Source: a virus. From it: 39,335 bases of DNA. Below, in pieces: positions 1,264-27,103 of the stretch. The position numbers and the translations under genes are program-made. Where the stretch lies: the IMG/VR virus record IMGVR_UViG_3300042892_000922, positions 1 through 39,335 of that record; one strand, written 5' to 3'. The stretch's first letter is position 1. The number at the start of each line of letters is the position of its first letter. The notes beneath the pieces are model-generated. The model had not been told where the DNA came from. It searched no databases and saw only the letters and a program-made list of their open reading frames with translations.

Positions 1264-2253
1264 GTGGAACGTTTCGTTATAGCCCAAGTAACTGACACGG
1301 TTACTCTTTATCAGCAGGACAATGTTTACCGCATTGTTAAGGCTGACCCTTCTTTGCCGATGGAGTACGGGCAACGTTTTGTTTTAGTTACAACTAGCAC
1401 TACTGGTCCTATCGGTGCACAAGGTCCTCAAGGGTTTCAGGGTGCTCAAGGATTTCAGGGTGCACAGGGTTTCCAAGGTGTGCAGGGACCTCAAGGGACT
1501 CAAGGTCCACAGGGGTTCCAAGGTTTCCAGGGTGCTCAAGGTTCACAGGGACCTCAAGGGGTGCAGGGTGCGACAGGTTCTCAAGGAGCCACAGGTCCAC
1601 AAGGTACACAAGGTTTCCAAGGCACGACTGGCGCACAAGGACCTCAAGGTTTCCAAGGCGACACTGGTTCTCAGGGTGCTACGGGACCACAGGGTGCTAC
1701 AGGCGCACAAGGTTCACAAGGACCACAAGGTTTCCAAGGTGACGTTGGTAGTCAGGGTGCTACAGGACCACAAGGTTTCCAGGGTGCACAGGGGGCTACT
1801 GGTGCTGACTCTACTGTTGCTGGTCCACAAGGTAGCCAAGGACCCCAAGGGTTCCAAGGAGCGCAAGGTGCGCAGGGTTCTGTTGGTCCTCAAGGTGCGC
1901 AGGGTTTCCAAGGGTTTCAGGGTGCGCAGGGTGCTACGGGTTCACCTGGTATTCAGGGTCCTCAAGGTGTTCAGGGTGCGCAAGGTCCACAAGGTGCGCA
2001 AGGTGATGTTGGTTCTCAGGGTCCTCAAGGCGCTACTGGTTCTCAAGGTCCACAGGGACCGCAAGGTGCGCAAGGTCCACAAGGGTTCACTACTTTAGAT
2101 GGTGCTACCGATGTAACTATTACTTCTCCCGTGACGGGACAGGCGTTGGTCTATGATGGGACATCTAGCCAGTGGGTGAACACGACCGCTAGTACAGACC
2201 CGATGAACGACAACAAGTTCACAGCAATAATCACGATGGACGTAGGAGTTTAA
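1264..2253 (+). CDS. Collagen-like tail fibre protein
   Basis: 329 residues from a GTG start. The N-terminal ~50 residues form a globular attachment-like domain. Residues ~50-280 are almost pure Gly-X-Y triplets, mostly with Gln or Pro/Phe at X/Y, interrupted once near residue 180 by A-D-S-T-V-A. The last ~45 residues form a small C-terminal head. Collagen-like triplets are a known trimeric shaft in phage fibres. The gene is flanked by other fibre components. Its repeats are similar at the DNA level to those of the gene at 8943. Confidence 0.88.
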
Positions 2254-8942: not shown

Positions 8943-9887
8943 ATGGCAATTAAAAGCAGACGAGCATACAAAGGTGCAGCAGTAGCAAATGCGCTGGATA
9001 CAACTATTGCAGCCGACGCTGTAACCATAACGGTCAAAAGCAACTTCTCTGGATGGGACACTACGGGTACCCCGTTCTTCTGCGTTATTGACCCTGGCAC
9101 CACTAAAGAAGAAAAAGTTTGTGTCGTATACACGGGCACTAACACGTTGGCTATGGTTGACCCTGCTGCTACTTCTAGTTGGACAACAGCAGGTAACTAC
9201 GTTGCTGGGCGTGGAGTAGATAACACTACTGCCCGTGCACATGATGCTGGTGCCGTTATATATCCTGTGTTTACAGCATATGAGGCAAACGAGGCAAACG
9301 AACTTGTTTCCAAGTATGCGAGCACGGGTGCGATGGTCTATCAGGATGCTTCCAGTTTTGCTCAACTTGCGATTGGTACGCAAGGGCAAGTGCTCGCAGT
9401 TAACACGGGGGCTACTGCACCACAATGGAAGAACGTTGTTGACGTTGCATTGCAAGGACCTCAAGGTACGCAAGGACCCCAAGGCTCGCAAGGACCTCAA
9501 GGCTCGCAAGGTGCTACTGGTCCTCAAGGAAGCCAAGGACCACAGGGTGCTACAGGAAGTCAGGGAGCAACGGGCAGCCAAGGAGCAACTGGTCCTCAAG
9601 GTTCCACTGGACCACAAGGTACACAAGGACCTCAAGGCGCAACAGGCGCAACAGGCACCGCAACATGGAAGTACGGTTCAAGCGTAGTCAGCATGGTTTC
9701 TGGTTCTGCTGCCGTGACACATGGGGTAGGAGCAACACCATCAACAGCAGTTGTATCAAATGGTGACAATAGTGCTTTGTCTGCTTCGTTTGAAATTGCT
9801 TCGTTGGATGGGACTTATATAAACGTAAGGCAAATCGGCGGGACAGCAACAACTTCTGTTCGTGTAAACTGGATAGCAATTCCCTAG
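8943..9887 (+). CDS. Collagen-like tail fibre with N-terminal attachment domain
   Basis: 314 residues; TAGGAG lies upstream of the ATG. Residues ~15-120 form a beta domain containing [12 protein letters not shown], the same small-domain pattern as in the adaptor-like protein at 6180. Residues ~170-238 are Gly-X-Y triplets (G-P-Q, G-S-Q, G-A-T). The C-terminal ~75 residues (V-T-H-G-V-G-A-T-P ... V-R-V-N-W-I-A) form a compact tip of a type common in fibres. This is probably the fibre bound to the preceding tail protein. Confidence 0.85.
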
Positions 9888-12702: not shown

Positions 12703-12973
12703 GACTACGTTTGAAATGGTTTGTGTCCGATGGGCTGACGCTCATGCGGGCGAAGGTCACTGGTCTTTGTTAGAAGATGAAGATAGCGGTGAACACATTG
12801 TTGAAACGGTAGGACTTTTGATACCACCAACCGAGGGTGGGAAGAAAGAACATTTGACTATCGCACAGTCTGTTAGCCCCGATGGTTTCGTTGACCACGT
12901 AATTTTTATTCCTGTGTCAATGAGCAGGAGTGTGACTTTTCTCACACCACGCACAAACCCCTTGACAATGTAA
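12689..12973 (+). CDS. Conserved-type phage protein of unknown function
   Basis: 94 residues from the ATG at 12689, chosen because AGAGGA lies just upstream; a start at 12614 would overlap the zinc-ribbon gene far more. The pattern W-A-D-A-H ... T-V-G-L-L-I-P-P ... F-V-D-H-V-I-F-I-P-V recurs in short actinophage proteins. Its 3' end contains the CRP-type site and the -35 element of the next operon. Confidence 0.65.
   Translation: MEQNETTFEMVCVRWADAHAGEGHWSLLEDEDSGEHIVETVGLLIPPTEGGKKEHLTIAQSVSPDGFVDHVIFIPVSMSRSVTFLTPRTNPLTM
12931..12946. promoter_or_regulatory. CRP/GlxR-type palindrome upstream of the recombination operon
   Basis: TGTGACTTTTCTCACA is an exact TGTGA-N6-TCACA. It ends 15 bp before the TTGACA at 12962, so its centre is at about -58 from the inferred start. 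The consensus is that of CRP-family activators in actinobacteria. Confidence 0.65.
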
Positions 12974-12990
12974 CACCCCTTCTGTACTCT
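12962..12990 (+). promoter_or_regulatory. Candidate promoter of the recombination operon
   Basis: TTGACA (12962-12967), a 17-bp spacer and TACTCT (12985-12990). The -35 is perfect and the -10 fits the looser actinobacterial TANNNT. It overlaps the 3' end of the preceding gene and lies about 35 bp before the exonuclease ATG. The weak -10 with a CRP-type site upstream would suit an activator-dependent promoter. Confidence 0.6.
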
Positions 12991-13024: not shown

Positions 13025-13981
13025 ATGAGTCTTCAACGATACCGAATATCAAAACCTGAACACGGCAGCCAAGACTGGTTGAACATCAGGTTCCGTGACG
13101 AACAAGGGAACAAGCGTGTGAGTGCATCAGCAGTCGCAGCAATCTACGACTTGCACCCGTTCGTGCCGAGAGACACCTACGCAGCAGAACTGCTCAGTGA
13201 CGTTGCACCTGTACCCATCCCACCCAACCCTGCAATGGAACGAGGCAACCGTCTTGAACCATTCGTGTTGGAATGGGCAGCCGACAAACTTGGTATCACC
13301 TTTGATACACCCGAAGAAATGTTTGTGGTCAACACAGACGGTGGTGCACGTATGGTGTCCACCCTTGACGGCTTCCACGAGGACGGTGACATCCGTAAGG
13401 TGCTGGAAATCAAAACCACTACCCGTCCTTGGGAGGGGCAACTGCCTGACTACTGGCGTATCCAAGGTGTACAGCAAGCCATCTGTGCTGACGTAGATGA
13501 GGTGACATGGGCAGTCTTTGACCCGTCGTTGTCGCTTCACCTGCACGTACAGCCTGTGCCTGACGCTGAGAAGCAAGAGCACATCAAGGCAGTAGAACTT
13601 TGGTTGAACGCTATTGACATGGACATGACACCAGCAGGAGTCAAGTGGTCATACGAAACGATTAACCGCCGTTACGCTAAACCTGAGGCACGTACAGTTG
13701 AGTTACCCTCCGACGCAACTGAACTTGTTGCACGACTTAAGCACGTTAAAGCAGAACTTAAGTCCTATCAGGAACTTGAAGATCAATTAAAAGCAGAACT
13801 TTGCGAGTTGCTTGGCGACGCTGATACTGGTACCGTTAACGGTACAGTCGTTGCGACTTGGAAGGGACAGACGAGGGACAGCCTTGACATCAAGGCGTTC
13901 AAAGCAGCCTGCCCTGACATTGCAAAAGAATTCTCACGACAAACAACAACACGTACATTGCTCTTGAAAGGGGCTAGATAA
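13025..13981 (+). CDS. YqaJ-type recombination exonuclease
   Basis: 318 residues after a strong GAAAGGGGAGAC leader. The PD-(D/E)XK core is visible: G-N-R-L-E-P-F-V-L-E (about 77-86), T-L-D-G with the metal Asp (about 117-120), L-E-I-K-T-T with the E-x-K pair (about 130-135), then Q-G-V-Q-Q. The C-terminal part is a Leu/Glu/Lys helical region. YqaJ nucleases resect double-strand ends and work with a phage annealing protein, which follows with a one-base overlap. Confidence 0.85.
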   Translation: MSLQRYRISKPEHGSQDWLNIRFRDEQGNKRVSASAVAAIYDLHPFVPRDTYAAELLSDVAPVPIPPNPAMERGNRLEPFVLEWAADKLGITFDTPEEMFVVNTDGGARMVSTLDGFHEDGDIRKVLEIKTTTRPWEGQLPDYWRIQGVQQAICADVDEVTWAVFDPSLSLHLHVQPVPDAEKQEHIKAVELWLNAIDMDMTPAGVKWSYETINRRYAKPEARTVELPSDATELVARLKHVKAELKSYQELEDQLKAELCELLGDADTGTVNGTVVATWKGQTRDSLDIKAFKAACPDIAKEFSRQTTTRTLLLKGAR

Positions 13982-18010: not shown

Positions 18011-18141
18011 ACATTTGCGACCATTGCGGAACAGTCACGTTAGCCCTCACCACTTGGAAAGCCGAACAAGTGGTGGGGTGTGACTGCTCCTGTCATAAGA
18101 AAGTAATCACCAGCAAGCCCACTAAGAAACGGAAACGATAA
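17983..18141 (+). CDS. Mini zinc-finger protein
   Basis: 52 residues: C-D-H-C near the N-terminus and C-D-C-S-C-H in the middle, with a very basic tail (K-K-R-K-R). It overlaps the preceding gene by 28 bp and meets the WhiB gene at TAATG. Probable nucleic-acid binding; partner unknown. Confidence 0.55.
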   Translation: MAQNEPRFVNICDHCGTVTLALTTWKAEQVVGCDCSCHKKVITSKPTKKRKR

Positions 18142-18428
18142 TGCAGCGACGTAGATGGTGGGGCGAAGACGCAGCGTGTCAAGGAGTCGGGCATCACATC
18201 TTCTTCCCCGACACCAAGAAGGGTGACTGCAAAGGTAAACTCGTAGCCCTGTACGCTGAAGCAAAAACGTACTGTGATCGTTGCCCCGTGAGCAGTGAAT
18301 GTTTAGAGTCGCAACTTAAGTACGAAGTGGACACCTTCCAGCATGACGGTATGTGGGGTGGGCTGACACCAACGGAGCGCCGTGTCCTGATCGCTGACCG
18401 TGAATGGAAAAGGCGAAGCCCCCGCTGA
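18141..18428 (+). CDS. WhiB-family iron-sulfur transcription factor
   Basis: 95 residues. Four cysteines in the WhiB arrangement (C13, then Y-C-D-R-C-P-V-S-S-E-C) would hold a 4Fe-4S cluster. The G-M-W-G-G turn and the basic T-P-T-E-R-R tail complete the family signature. WhiB proteins are confined to actinobacteria and their phages, so this is the best host marker in the window. Phage WhiB proteins can bind the host sigma factor. It is last in its operon; its stop lies inside the terminator stem. Confidence 0.93.
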   Translation: MQRRRWWGEDAACQGVGHHIFFPDTKKGDCKGKLVALYAEAKTYCDRCPVSSECLESQLKYEVDTFQHDGMWGGLTPTERRVLIADREWKRRSPR

Positions 18429-20829: not shown

Positions 20830-20858
20830 AGTATATCAAACCGTTAAACAGTTGTCAA
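20830..20858 (-). promoter_or_regulatory. Strong sigma-70-type promoter of leftward operon 1
   Basis: On the minus strand TTGACA (20858-20853), a 17-bp spacer and TATACT (20835-20830). The spacer region contains two AACNGTT units 8 bp apart (20839-20845 and 20847-20853), a possible operator. This is the best promoter match in the window. Confidence 0.8.
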
Positions 20859-20868
20859 GTCTTTTCTT

Positions 20869-20884
20869 TGTGAAATATGTCACA
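20869..20884. promoter_or_regulatory. CRP/GlxR-type palindrome upstream of leftward promoter 1
   Basis: TGTGAAATATGTCACA (plus strand) is an exact TGTGA-N6-TCACA. It ends 10 bp upstream of the -35, centre at about -53 from the inferred start. Confidence 0.65.
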
Positions 20885-20911
20885 CTATAAAACCCTTCTG
20901 TCTTAAGGAAG

Positions 20912-20957
20912 TTAGGCACACCCAACACCAAATGTAAGGTGCACCTAACATCCTGTC
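20912..20957. repeat. Iteron-like array, two 23-bp units
   Basis: Units at 20912 and 20935 share T-x-A-G-G-N4-C-C-x-A-A-C-A: TTAGGCACACCCAACA and TAAGGTGCACCTAACA. The core TAAGG-N4-CCTAA is itself an inverted repeat. Three more units occur at 23569-23637 with the same 23-bp step. This copy lies upstream of the CRP-type site and promoter of operon 1. Confidence 0.65.
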
Positions 20958-22369: not shown

Positions 22370-23137
22370 TCACTCTGCCGTGAACGCCTCCCCACACCCG
22401 TCACAAGTCACGCCCTTGTCTAACACTGTGCGAGATGCTCGGAGCGTAGAGCCACATCCACAGGTAGCCTTGAGGAGGTTCTTATTTCGCCCTGTAGGGG
22501 TAGGAGCGCCTCCACCAAAGGTGAACCCTCCACCCATACCGCCACTGCCACTAGAGCGCCCATGATTAGCCATAGCCGTGAGCGAGTCATCTATCTTCTT
22601 AATCTGTTTTGCCCAAGTCTTACGGCATGACTCGGGAACCTCAGTATGACTCCACCCGATAGACTCACTAACCTTAGTGATCTCTAACCCGAAAAGCCCT
22701 TCGGCAGTTGCCTTGAACTTTTTGTTATGTCGTCCGTTACTGTCCGTGTCCCTCACGCCGTCTCGCATATTTGCGGCATGTGCCGCCTCATGGGCAAGGG
22801 TACCGAACACTGACCGTGCACCACGTCCCAAGTTTTCACCCGAAACCATGATCTCATGGAAACCCCGTTCCACTGTCTTAAGTCCTAGCCCGACCGTCAC
22901 GGCAATGTGACCATAGGCATAGTCTGTGTCTAGTTCCTGTGCCTCACTGAGCCATGCACGATTACTGTACGTGATATGACCCCAAGCCCTAGCGTCCCTC
23001 TTCACTACCATGATGGCAGGTGGGAGGGCTTTACCCGTGACCCGTTCAACGTGTGCCGATAAATCGGCATACACTGAGTGTAGCGCCTCTACAATTGGGG
23101 CAAGTGTTGCCTCATCTGTCTTAAGTGTTGTATCCAT
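22370..23137 (-). CDS. SprT-like zinc metalloprotease
   Basis: 255 residues. The H-E-A-A-H zinc-binding motif (about residues 115-119) followed by D-S-N-G-R-H-N-K-K-F marks a SprT-like fold. A Gly-rich linker (about 195-215) leads to a C-terminal zinc ribbon (C-G-C-G ... C-D-G-C-G). Eukaryotic SPRTN cleaves DNA-protein crosslinks; phage versions are common but uncharacterised. It may remove host proteins from DNA. It is the largest protein of the leftward block. Confidence 0.8.
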   Translation of the reverse strand: MDTTLKTDEATLAPIVEALHSVYADLSAHVERVTGKALPPAIMVVKRDARAWGHITYSNRAWLSEAQELDTDYAYGHIAVTVGLGLKTVERGFHEIMVSGENLGRGARSVFGTLAHEAAHAANMRDGVRDTDSNGRHNKKFKATAEGLFGLEITKVSESIGWSHTEVPESCRKTWAKQIKKIDDSLTAMANHGRSSGSGGMGGGFTFGGGAPTPTGRNKNLLKATCGCGSTLRASRTVLDKGVTCDGCGEAFTAE

Positions 23138-23365: not shown

Positions 23366-23383
23366 GTTGTCCCCTGTCGTAAG

Positions 23384-23399
23384 TGAGGCGATCACCTCA
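23384..23399. promoter_or_regulatory. Operator-like palindrome at the start of leftward operon 2
   Basis: TGAGGCGATCACCTCA is palindromic with one mismatched pair and lies at about +1 to +16 of the inferred transcript. The position suits a repressor site; the binding protein is unknown. Confidence 0.5.
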
Positions 23400-23406
23400 T
23401 GAAAAC

Positions 23407-23435
23407 ATCGTACAGGAAACGTGCAACGATTGCAA
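23407..23435 (-). promoter_or_regulatory. Candidate promoter of leftward operon 2
   Basis: Minus strand TTGCAA (23435-23430), 17-bp spacer, TACGAT (23412-23407). Both hexamers match four of six positions, and the -10 fits TANNNT. A CRP-type site 25 bp upstream and an operator-like palindrome at the start point support it. Confidence 0.55.
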
Positions 23436-23460
23436 GCACCTAGAGCACATTTCTTCCCAA

Positions 23461-23476
23461 TGTGACGAAATTCACA
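23461..23476. promoter_or_regulatory. CRP/GlxR-type palindrome upstream of leftward promoter 2
   Basis: TGTGACGAAATTCACA, an exact TGTGA-N6-TCACA. It sits 4 bp from a LexA box, so the two regulators would bind side by side. Confidence 0.65.
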
Positions 23477-23480
23477 CACA

Positions 23481-23494
23481 CGAACACCTGTTCG
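23481..23494. promoter_or_regulatory. LexA (SOS) box 1
   Basis: CGAACACCTGTTCG, an exact CGAAC-N4-GTTCG as bound by Gram-positive and actinobacterial LexA. Confidence 0.8.
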
Positions 23495-23540
23495 CATAAA
23501 CAGTAACCAGCGTGTAAAATAACCAACGAATAAAACAAAC

Positions 23541-23554
23541 CGAACACCTGTTCG
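23541..23554. promoter_or_regulatory. LexA (SOS) box 2
   Basis: CGAACACCTGTTCG, identical to box 1 including the flanking CA, exactly 60 bp away, which could allow cooperative or looped binding. Confidence 0.8.
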
Positions 23555-23568
23555 CAAGCCCAACAATG

Positions 23569-23637
23569 TAAGGATGACCTAACACAATAAGTAAGCCCAA
23601 CCAAACACAAAGTGTGAGGTATGCCTAACAAGGCTCG
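23569..23637. repeat. Iteron-like array, three 23-bp units
   Basis: Units begin at 23569 (TAAGGATGACCTAACA), 23592 (TAAGCCCAACCAAACA, degenerate) and 23615 (TGAGGTATGCCTAACA). The strict 23-bp step and common core match the two-unit array at 20912. Iteron arrays are known from plasmid and phage origins and from multi-site operators; which applies here is open. Confidence 0.6.
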
Positions 23638-23720
23638 GTTATTTGCAGGCTACAAGTATTTTATTTGCTGTGTGCAAGTATCGGCGGGTTTGTTTGTAGT
23701 CTGCAACTATCGGGGGTGGG

Positions 23721-23810
23721 TGTGTCTTTTGTCACATGGGCGAACGTATGTTCGGGTCTGTGTCGTCGGTCACACCAGCGAACGTGTGTTCGTCTGTGAC
23801 ATCCGTCACA
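23721..23810. promoter_or_regulatory. Alternating CRP-type and LexA palindrome array
   Basis: Five palindromes in 90 bp: TGTGTCTTTTGTCACA (23721-23736, one mismatch to the CRP consensus), LexA box CGAACGTATGTTCG (23741-23754), TGTGTCGTCGGTCACA (23759-23774, one mismatch), LexA box CGAACGTGTGTTCG (23779-23792), exact TGTGACATCCGTCACA (23795-23810). Start-to-start spacings are 20, 18, 20 and 16 bp, close to two helical turns, so all sites could face one side of the DNA. Confidence 0.7.
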
Positions 23811-24296
23811 CAACTGGGGCTGTGCCGAGGGTGCGGGTGGCGGGGCTATATGTATATGTCTTTTGCCTGGATTCACTCTTTTGTTTTGTGTCACGTTGGG
23901 TGGTGGCTTGGTGACTGTGTGTGGTTTTTTGTTCTTGCAGGGGGGAGGGGTTTTGGGCTTTGGTGTAAGTGTTTGACGTTTAGGGTGCGGGGGAGACTGT
24001 TGACCTGAACTCTTGCCACTTCTTTGCTCTCTGTCTTGTAATGGAAACATATTGGATGAAGAACCAGAACTGCTCCATAAGAAGGAGCAATCTGTATTGT
24101 CCATGTCCTGTCTTCTTGGCAACAACGAGCGTAGCGAGGCGTTAGCCCGAACGTAGTGAGGTGTTCTTAGTCCCCCCACGGTTTAGAACTATTGTTCAAG
24201 GTCGCCGTGACCAGTATTTTCTAGCCGACACCAATTTTTATGATATGACGTTCATAACGCTGCTTGTCCCGCTAACACAACAGGGGAAGGACGGTC
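23811..24296. other. Non-coding remainder of the control region and late leader
   Basis: No gene is supported over ~490 bp. Visible: a TATATG (23847-23852) about 56 bp downstream of the centre of the CRP-type site at 23795, a possible activator-dependent -10 without a -35; the promoter at 24013; a TGCTCC-ATAAGAA-GGAGCA hairpin (24071-24089); a GGTC-GCCGT-GACC hairpin near 24201; and two imperfect copies of a GTAG-x-GAGG phrase near 24131-24160. Long ORFs here overlap the regulatory palindromes. Confidence 0.5.
24013..24042 (+). promoter_or_regulatory. Candidate late promoter
   Basis: TTGCCA (24013-24018), 18-bp spacer, TGTAAT (24037-24042), each five of six matches. It faces the terminase and capsid block and would give a leader of about 250 nt before the first likely gene. 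Confidence 0.6.
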
Positions 24297-24464
24297 ATGG
24301 TTACTTCTTGGTTGCAGGGAACATCTACCCAGGTTTCCCTGTTTACGTCCCGCACCATGCAAACGGTGTACAACCATGAATTCTTTTCAGATGACAACAT
24401 CATACTACACGATGCCTGCTACTATTTGCAACATGAAGAAGAACAATACTCGTGGCATGAATGA
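24297..24464 (+). CDS. Small acidic protein, first gene of the late block
   Basis: 55 residues from ATG 24297, which has a good GGGGAAGGA five bases upstream. The C-terminal half (N-H-E-F-F-S-D-D ... Y-Y-L-Q-H-E-E-E-Q-Y-S-W-H-E) is acidic and aromatic. A competing ORF in another frame (24161-24379, GTG) lacks a ribosome site. Its end overlaps the next start by 8 bp. Confidence 0.5.
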   Translation: MVTSWLQGTSTQVSLFTSRTMQTVYNHEFFSDDNIILHDACYYLQHEEEQYSWHE

Positions 24465-25129: not shown

Positions 25130-27103
25130 TTGGGGACCAAGAGAGCAGTTAACCCTGCCGATAAAGCCAAGTTCTTCGCTGCGATAACTGCGGGGCAATC
25201 TATAACTGAAGCGTCACGGATGGCTGGCATCCACATCAACACAGGTTCTAACTGGTTGAAGAAAGCAAAAGCGGTAGAAGCAAACCGTAAAGCAGCCGAA
25301 CATGGTGTTCAACGCCAGCGGGCTAACCAGGGTGGCATCCAAAAAATTGCGTACCAAGATTTGATGGAAGCCATTGATCTCCCTGGCGCATTGAAAGAAG
25401 AAGACTTATGTGAGGAAGCCAGACGGGGTTTGCATGATTTTGATTACTTTCGTAGAAGGTACCTTGGTCGTGTCCCATCCCCTTGGCAGGTAGAAGCAGC
25501 CGTCACACTAGTTGAACTGTTGGAGTCGGAAGAAAAAGAATTTGTTGTACTTAACGTTCCTCCTGGCGCTGGTAAGTCCACCCTGTTCCATGATGTAGCA
25601 GTTTGGGCTATCTGCCGTAACAGGCGTGTGCGTGTGATGATTGGTTCTGTTTCTTTCGCTATGGCTAAACAGTATTCCCGCCGTATCCGTGAAACACTTG
25701 AACGGGTGATGCCGTTGGAACCTGACCCTATGCAAGTAACGAAAGGGCTAGCACTCAATGCTGAAGGATGTCTCTCTATTGATTACGGTAGGTTCAAACC
25801 TACAGACAAAGGGGCGCTCTGGCGTTCAGAAGAGTTTGTTGTTGAACAACTTGACGGTAATGGACTTGACAACAAAGAACCCACAGTACGTGCATACGGT
25901 ATTGAATCAGAGTTCATCGGACACCGAGCAGACTTATGCCTATTTGACGACGTATCATCGCCCGATAACTCCCGTGAATCTGTCTCAAGGGATAAATTGT
26001 TGGAAAGATGGGACAATGTGGCGGAAGCACGTTGCGACCCAGGCGGGCTACTGGCAGTTGTTGGACAGCGCCTCGGCAGTGGCGACTTATACGCACATTG
26101 TCTCTCCAAAGTTACCTACGATGAGGACATAGATGACACATATGACGGGTCGGACATCACTGATCTGGAAGATTTAGAACGAATAGAACCTTTGAAACGT
26201 TCCAAATATAGGCATATCATCTATAAAGCATATTATGAGGAACTAGACACAGGGAAAGAATCTAAACGGTTTAGTTCCCAGCCGTATCCTAATGGTCCAC
26301 TGCTTGACCCTAAGCGCCTCCCTTGGAAAGACTTGTCTTATATACGACACAACAAACCTGACATCTTTCGGGTGGTTTATCAACAGGAAGACTTGGATTT
26401 AGATGCCAGACTTGTGGATAGAACGTGGATAACGGGTGGAAAAGGTGTGGATGGTGTTGAATATGTTGGTTGTATAGACAACGACAGGCAACCAGGGTTC
26501 ATCACTAGAGGGTTAGCCCGCCCTTGGGTGTCTATTGTGTCGGTTGACCCATCCCCAACAATGTTCTGGGCACTCACATGGTTCATCTACCAGCCCGAAA
26601 GCAACCTTTACCATGTTGTAGACATCGCTAGACAGAAACTTACTGCCGAAGAACTACTTGGTTTTGACACAGGAACAGGTGTCTACTCAGGAATCATGCA
26701 AGAATGGCAAGACAGGTCACACGATATGGGCTACCCCATCTCGCATTGGGTGGTAGAAATCAACGCTGCCCAACGATTCCTCCTAGCGCACGACTTTGTA
26801 CGCAAATGGCAAACCCGTGAGAACGTAAACGTCGTACCCCATACCACAGGCAGAAACAAACTAGACGAAAACCTGGGTGTGGAAGCCTTACTCCCACCTT
26901 TACTCCGCACAGGAGCCGTCCGATTCCCGACTATGCGCAACAACTGGAAGACACTCGCAGCCGTAGAAGAACTCACTTCATGGCATCGTGACAAAAAGAA
27001 CGGCACCGACATCGTGATGGCATTATGGATGGGTGTACTCAACCTCCCCAACCTGACCACCGTAAAGAAGCCACCAAAAATGTGGCGACCATCCTGGCTA
27101 TGA
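25130..27103 (+). CDS. terL: Terminase large subunit with N-terminal small-subunit-like HTH
   Basis: 657 residues from a TTG behind AAGGAG. Residues ~15-50 (A-I-T-A-G-Q-S-I-T-E-A-S-R-M-A-G-I-H-x-N-T) form a helix-turn-helix like those of small terminases. The ATPase has Walker A P-P-G-A-G-K-S-T (about 145) and Walker B L-C-L-F-D-D-V (about 270). The nuclease has V-S-V-D-P-S (about 470) and a late T-D-I-V-M-A-L. It cuts and pumps DNA through the portal. No separate small terminase was found. Confidence 0.9.
   Translation: MGTKRAVNPADKAKFFAAITAGQSITEASRMAGIHINTGSNWLKKAKAVEANRKAAEHGVQRQRANQGGIQKIAYQDLMEAIDLPGALKEEDLCEEARRGLHDFDYFRRRYLGRVPSPWQVEAAVTLVELLESEEKEFVVLNVPPGAGKSTLFHDVAVWAICRNRRVRVMIGSVSFAMAKQYSRRIRETLERVMPLEPDPMQVTKGLALNAEGCLSIDYGRFKPTDKGALWRSEEFVVEQLDGNGLDNKEPTVRAYGIESEFIGHRADLCLFDDVSSPDNSRESVSRDKLLERWDNVAEARCDPGGLLAVVGQRLGSGDLYAHCLSKVTYDEDIDDTYDGSDITDLEDLERIEPLKRSKYRHIIYKAYYEELDTGKESKRFSSQPYPNGPLLDPKRLPWKDLSYIRHNKPDIFRVVYQQEDLDLDARLVDRTWITGGKGVDGVEYVGCIDNDRQPGFITRGLARPWVSIVSVDPSPTMFWALTWFIYQPESNLYHVVDIARQKLTAEELLGFDTGTGVYSGIMQEWQDRSHDMGYPISHWVVEINAAQRFLLAHDFVRKWQTRENVNVVPHTTGRNKLDENLGVEALLPPLLRTGAVRFPTMRNNWKTLAAVEELTSWHRDKKNGTDIVMALWMGVLNLPNLTTVKKPPKMWRPSWL

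Follow-up and report, generated by a model that had tools for sequence, protein, structure and literature searches.

Putative CRP-type and LexA-type operators in the control regions of uncultured actinobacterial viruses

We analysed a viral stretch of 39,335 nucleotides (the window; IMG/VR record IMGVR_UViG_3300042892_000922, positions 1 to 39,335) in which five palindromes resembling CRP-type and LexA-type operators alternate within 90 bp. The five palindromes are real and far above chance, and in a large group of uncultured actinobacterial viruses apparently genuine sites of both kinds lie in the control region that separates early from packaging genes. They are probably operators for two host regulators, a CRP-type protein that activates phage promoters and LexA, which represses them. 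Since the putative sites are those of sensors of DNA damage (LexA) and of carbon or cAMP state (CRP-type), gene timing in the virus probably follows the condition of the host cell. The original prediction of host CRP and LexA sites in phage promoters held for the classes of site, their regulatory placement and their conservation, and failed for a DNA face shared by the regulators and for conservation of the exact array.

The array begins with a CRP/GlxR-type box, C1 (TGTGTCTTTTGTCACA, 23721–23736, plus strand), followed by a LexA-type box (CGAACGTATGTTCG, 23741–23754), a second CRP/GlxR-type box, C2 (TGTGTCGTCGGTCACA, 23759–23774, plus strand), a second LexA-type box (CGAACGTGTGTTCG, 23779–23792) and a third CRP/GlxR-type box, C3 (TGTGACATCCGTCACA, 23795–23810, plus strand). 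C1 and C2 fit GTG(N)6GNCAC, and both LexA-type boxes, which like the others in the window are given without strand, have inner R..Y bases. The letters reproduce exactly the alternating CRP-like and LexA palindromes at 16–20 bp steps that had been proposed, with start-to-start steps of 20, 18, 20 and 16 bp and centre-to-centre steps of 19, 19, 19 and 17 bp. A second CRP–LexA pair, expected at 23461–23494, is also present (TGTGACGAAATTCACA and CGAACACCTGTTCG), together with an extra LexA-type box at 23541–23554 (CGAACACCTGTTCG) that is kept in the related locus L117. The idea that both regulators would bind on one DNA face is ruled out, because the centres of the five sites are 17–19 bp apart and the helix turns every 10.5 bp. 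Part of the array resembles the product of tandem duplication of a CRP–LexA unit, the two copies lying 38 bp apart with 79% identity (repeat D1).

Chance levels were taken from first-order Markov simulations, with dinucleotide frequencies kept, of positions 23369–24375 and of the whole window. Within 23369–24375, four LexA-type words were seen against a simulated mean of 0.0015, and four CRP-type words against 0.09. The LexA-type CGAAC-N4-GTTCG palindrome occurs four times in the whole 39-kb window (0.04 simulated), always inside 23481–23792. The CRP-type TGTG-N8-CACA word occurs six times (1.7 simulated), four of these in 23461–23810 and the others at 12931 and 20869. This window-wide total is only mildly high, because six was also the maximum across 300 simulations, and it is the clustering of CRP-type words, rather than their total, that is striking. 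Local GT-richness on one side of the region and CA-richness on the opposite side might suit palindromes arising by chance in low-complexity DNA; the gulf between simulated and observed sites, conservation across relatives and the blind palindrome count described below refute that reading, which deserves almost no credence.

The intergenic region lies between two gene blocks. The leftward operon comprises small genes and a SprT-like gene (22370–23137, minus strand; phrog_6361, E=1.2e-32; the Pfam SprT-like match, at E=0.00077, does not reach its cut-off), and the rightward block opens with a gene at 24376 and the terminase large subunit (25130–27103, plus strand; phrog_38, E=3.1e-57), which lies downstream of the rightward promoter. 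Elsewhere the window encodes a RecE-like exonuclease, an annealing protein, a RusA-like resolvase and a single-strand binding protein, as well as a WhiB-like gene (18141–18428, plus strand; Pfam Whib, E=5e-16) that marks the host as probably actinobacterial. No integrase or CI-type repressor was found among the window proteins scanned, and neither a lysogen nor a plasmid form was seen; the record is possibly incomplete, since it is a virus contig without end repeats.

Candidate promoters accompany the boxes on both sides of the region. The CRP/GlxR-type box of the leftward promoter (TGTGACGAAATTCACA, 23461–23476, minus strand) reads in the GNCAC form on the minus strand (TGTGAATTTCGTCACA) and lies 4 bp from the LexA-type box at 23481–23494 (CGAACACCTGTTCG), a close pairing also found in L067, L079 and L098. 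The likely leftward promoter, TTGCAA-17-TACGAT (23407–23435, minus strand), is 25 bp beyond this CRP-type box, an offset that recurs in L131 and L137. The CRP/GlxR-type box of another leftward operon (20869–20884, minus strand; TGTGACATATTTCACA on that strand) has the commonest geometry among relatives, with a TTGACA-17-TATACT promoter 10 bp beyond it (20830–20858, minus strand). The box ahead of the recE-like operon (12931–12946, plus strand) lies 15 bp, off phase, from the TTGACA-17-TACTCT promoter (12962–12990, plus strand) of the recE-like gene at 13025 (plus strand). One of the three CRP-type promoters of the window (20869, gap 10) is therefore in the 10/21/31 phase, the gaps at 12931 and 23461 being 15 and 25 bp. 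On the rightward side, a likely −10 (TATATGTATATG, 23847–23858, plus strand) of the promoter toward 24376 and terminase at 25130, both on the plus strand, is followed by conserved GGATTCACTCTTTT; the conserved stretch after the array contains TATATGTATAT and GGATTCACTCTTTT. The centre of C3 would lie about 57–63 bp ahead of the predicted rightward start, and a consensus −35 was not found for the rightward promoter, whose link to the array is not firm. From gene content we infer that the leftward and rightward regions are early and late promoters, respectively, and LexA-type boxes are present at both.

Across the phage group, CRP-type boxes show helically phased placement upstream of −35/−10 elements, at 10–11, 20–21 and 31 bp. 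The gap between box and TTGAC is 10 bp in 42 non-redundant cases, 11 bp in 8, 20–21 bp in 6 and 31 bp in 5, with about 0.6 cases expected per offset, and in most phage loci the −10 follows TTGAC at 17 bp. One-turn steps of this kind are a requirement for an activator that touches RNA polymerase. With a 17-bp spacer the box centres fall at about −53.5, −64 and −74.5, a few base pairs off the −61.5/−72 series of Escherichia coli CRP. A scan of the whole of IMG/VR found gaps of 10–11 bp in at least 119 stretches, compared with 22 for the half-turn gap of 15–16 bp. Of the 116 gap-10 loci that were new among the matches listed, 94 hold a homologue of a window protein, and the gap-10 geometry is therefore a signature of this phage assemblage. 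Moreover, a LexA-type box lies near 35 of 138 gap-10 promoters among the matches listed and near none of 21 gap-15 controls. With a LexA half scrambled, a separate control scan matched 9 stretches where the intact pattern matched 34, a difference that is weak taken alone. The gap-10 promoters L305–L420 also show, among the matches listed, an orientation-specific A at CRP-box position 9 (116 of 138) and C at position 6 (111 of 138).

Relatives were gathered by terminase and by SprT, with the SprT-like gene as anchor for their comparison, and both site classes are frequent upstream of these genes. We counted palindromes blind (5-bp arms, gaps of 0–12) in a non-redundant set of 55 regions that precede the phage SprT-like gene. 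The counts are not independent, given the relatedness of the phage loci. Among 13,312 palindromes, found on average in 0.11 regions each, TGTGA-N6-TCACA ranks first (22 of 55 regions), two overlapping forms of the LexA-type word rank second (GAACA-N2-TGTTC, 17 of 55) and third (CGAAC-N4-GTTCG, 16 of 55), and GTGAC-N4-GTCAC, part of the CRP-type box, ranks fourth. In downstream control stretches the TGTGA word occurred in 7 of 53 and the CGAAC word in 1 of 53. Phages whose terminase is 24–25% and SprT 33–36% identical to those of the window keep the arrangement CGAACATCTGTTCG-8 bp-TGTGACCGACATCACA-10 bp-TTGACT-17 bp-TAAAGT, in which CGAACATCTGTTCG is the LexA box and TGTGACCGACATCACA the CRP-type box.

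The five-site array is complete only in the window and L117, with degenerate copies in L005, which rules it out as a conserved unit. The core of the rightward promoter is conserved in L005, L009, L018 and L021, and more distantly in L026, L027, L051, L067 and L152; in some relatives this core stands without the array, and L018 has nothing but LexA-like boxes there and L021 palindromes of other kinds. Since the core occurs in relatives without the array, the array is an addition in the closest lineages and not the core itself. Conservation in related phages thus extends to both site classes upstream of phage genes, whereas the exact array and its spacing are confined to the closest relatives. 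Rows of CRP-type boxes 20–27 bp apart, seven in L088:9435–9607 and eight in L105:7287–7479, each have a LexA-type box at the end. Separately, the same cassette of CRP-type box and promoter stands at L117:11887 and at window position 20869, differing places in closely related phages, which suggests that promoter modules move between operons.

The LexA-type boxes resemble those of actinobacterial SOS genes. Their inner bases, which lay outside the search pattern, are R..Y in 128 of 134 distinct phage boxes, and all four exact boxes of the window combine the CGAAC-N4-GTTCG palindrome with inner R..Y. The phage word agrees with the Streptomyces venezuelae LexA box, tCGAAC-N4-GNNCGa (PMC9380542). 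It is found in 26 of 26 small actinobacterial genomes and, at many of the loci read, stands ahead of recA (L239, L241, L248–L250, L254 and L256) or lexA (L245–L247 and L252). Its position at phage promoters varies, from about 42 bp ahead of the −35 to farther upstream, downstream of the start (L008, L009 and L014) or beside a CRP-type box; CRP–LexA centre distances peak at 17, 19, 23 and 24 bp in a set partly fetched under a gap limit. This agreement with recA and lexA boxes bears on another reading, in which the sites are repeated elements of an origin of replication or a partition site and their likeness to LexA and CRP operators is incidental. Dense repeats and a nearby change of sign in GC skew would suit such a site, but the skew switches where transcription diverges, unrelated operons have these boxes ahead of them too and the promoter geometry largely refutes the idea, which we hold to be very improbable.

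Host proteins are the likely binders, because 27 phage records contain neither a recognisable CRP-type HTH nor a recognisable LexA DNA-binding domain; a phage-encoded LexA or CRP was rejected on this ground. A CRP-type regulator is present in 26 of 26 small actinobacterial genomes. The boxes have the TGTGA-N6-TCACA or GTG(N)6GNCAC form of CRP/GlxR operators and fit the consensus of both Streptomyces Crp, GTG(N)6GNCAC, and GlxR, GTG(N)8CAC (PMC10033298), although the motif of the window's own host may differ. No close isolate for host assignment emerged from terminase and SprT searches of phage records and prophages, and the SprT homologues of bacterial genomes, almost all of them in actinobacteria, are far off and without paired boxes.

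A search for CRP-type targets in small actinobacterial genomes turned up avoidance instead: these genomes, possibly host-like, avoid the CRP palindrome, whereas larger ones are enriched in it relative to a reversed control. GTGA-N6-TCAC occurs 1–16 times per genome, against 11–43 for the reversed word, in G042, G061, G079, G084, G094, G100, G108, G120, G142, G152, G154 and G162. All of these genomes encode a CRP-type regulator even so, and the word is present in cultured phages that infect such bacteria. Avoidance is one reason to consider that TGTGA-N6-TCACA is read by some other protein, phage-encoded, of the host CRP/FNR family or unrelated, in which case the promoter logic would stay and the signal would not be carbon. 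The A at position 9 in 116 of 138 listed promoters, an asymmetry that a site for a symmetric dimer would not require, and the WhiB-like proteins of many of these phages point the same way. We nevertheless think this unlikely, given that the box fits the Streptomyces Crp and GlxR consensus, that phased upstream placement suits CRP, that the 27 phage records have no CRP-type HTH gene and that the word is enriched in the larger actinobacterial genomes.

Under the preferred reading of host CRP-type and LexA operators, the binding, the direction of each effect, the response to cAMP and the timing can be inferred from sequence as follows. A host CRP/GlxR-type protein, whose known relatives are cAMP-responsive, would bind upstream and activate by contact with RNA polymerase, and in a carbon-limited or cAMP-rich cell it would turn on the phage promoters. 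Host LexA would sit beside the CRP-type boxes or over the transcription start and lower transcription, until SOS cleavage, set off by damage to the host or by phage replication itself, lifts the repression. The array may be an addition specific to its lineage, partly the product of tandem duplication, upstream of a conserved promoter core for the rightward (terminase/structural) genes, and within the array LexA would probably hinder CRP at adjoining boxes. Arrays of near-perfect palindromes, such as the seven CRP-type boxes of L088 and the eight of L105, on multicopy phage DNA could alternatively act as decoys, the amplified sites titrating host LexA and CRP from host promoters rather than mainly controlling phage ones. 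Most promoters have single, non-arrayed boxes, however, and in most cases the distance to the −35/−10 promoter is strict, which makes a decoy role improbable.

Host LexA and CRP each have precedents at such elements. Excerpts of work on the Bacillus thuringiensis phage GIL01 describe host LexA binding early and late promoters with no phage repressor (PMC6182141, PMC4551915), and the window phage is alike in having LexA boxes at its predicted early and late promoters. According to the same excerpts GIL01 differs in its Firmicute host, its need for phage gp7 and the activation of its late promoter by gp6, a LexA homologue, and the available parts of these papers do not mention CRP boxes (PMC6182141, PMC4551915). 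The superintegron integrase promoter of Vibrio cholerae drives a mobile-element gene that is LexA-repressed and cAMP–CRP-activated (PMC3948777). That system likewise brings LexA and CRP inputs to a mobile element, and its divergent overlapping promoters share a CRP box, but it is chromosomal and Gram-negative, and the box has a class II position, its centre at −41.5 relative to the divergent promoter. Colicin-type promoters combine SOS and catabolite inputs through LexA and CRP. The carocin system also joins LexA and CRP inputs to one bacteriocin system (PMC10253576). Colicins and carocin differ in being enterobacterial bacteriocin genes rather than phage early or packaging promoters. The development of E. 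coli phage T1 is tied to host CRP, yet the available part of that paper describes action through the phage regulator Pir and does not mention a LexA–CRP site pair (PMC6737242). The cultured Ca. Planktophila phages LanE43-AprE7 and AprF5 (PMC10202952) are related only distantly to the window phage, at about 40% for the major capsid and 24% for the terminase. They share the WhiB-like gene and CRP-type boxes ahead of genes near terL, and differ in lacking an exact LexA-type box and encoding a sigma-70-type factor.

We found no report of LexA and CRP together on phage promoters in the open-licence literature, in keeping with the original view that such a switch was not known from described phages. 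The parts are known already; their combination, conserved between very distant phages, appears new. To our knowledge, few phages of the abundant, slow-growing freshwater actinobacteria have been cultured, and we know of no account of how they decide when to grow. The promoter signature, a CRP-type box, 10 bp, TTGACA, 17 bp and a −10, often with a LexA box beside it, is searchable. It provides a testable way to connect the timing of the phage with the carbon state of the host and with DNA damage, and it helps to spot this phage group, together with its operons, in metagenomic data.

A third palindrome, GTWAGG-N4-CCTAAC, is conserved in the same intergenic region, as the iron-box-like GTAAGGATGACCTAAC at 23568–23583 and as GTGAGGTATGCCTAAC at 23614–23629 (neither assigned a strand). 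It also occurs beside CRP-type boxes at 20911–20926 and 20934–20949 of the window and in L005, L008, L009, L010, L086 and L117, the L086 copy (GTTAGGTTAGCCTAAC) being near part of the DtxR/IdeR iron box; a clear regulon was not obtained for it in host genes. A broader and rather doubtful possibility is that a hub of host regulators replaces the phage's own repressor. A CRP-type protein reporting carbon, LexA reporting damage, possibly from phage replication, and an iron-box-like third factor would then act on one intergenic region to time early and packaging genes, possibly with reversible dormancy in slow-growing freshwater actinobacteria. Between these palindromes and the array, positions 23639–23710 hold three copies of a TTGYARNYTRCAA-like palindrome (TTGCAGGCTACAA, TTGCTGTGTGCAA and TTGTAGTCTGCAA), partly kept in L005, L010 and L117. 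Finally, two presumed tail genes of the window (1264–2253 and 8943–9887) contain collagen-like GPQGxQG repeats.
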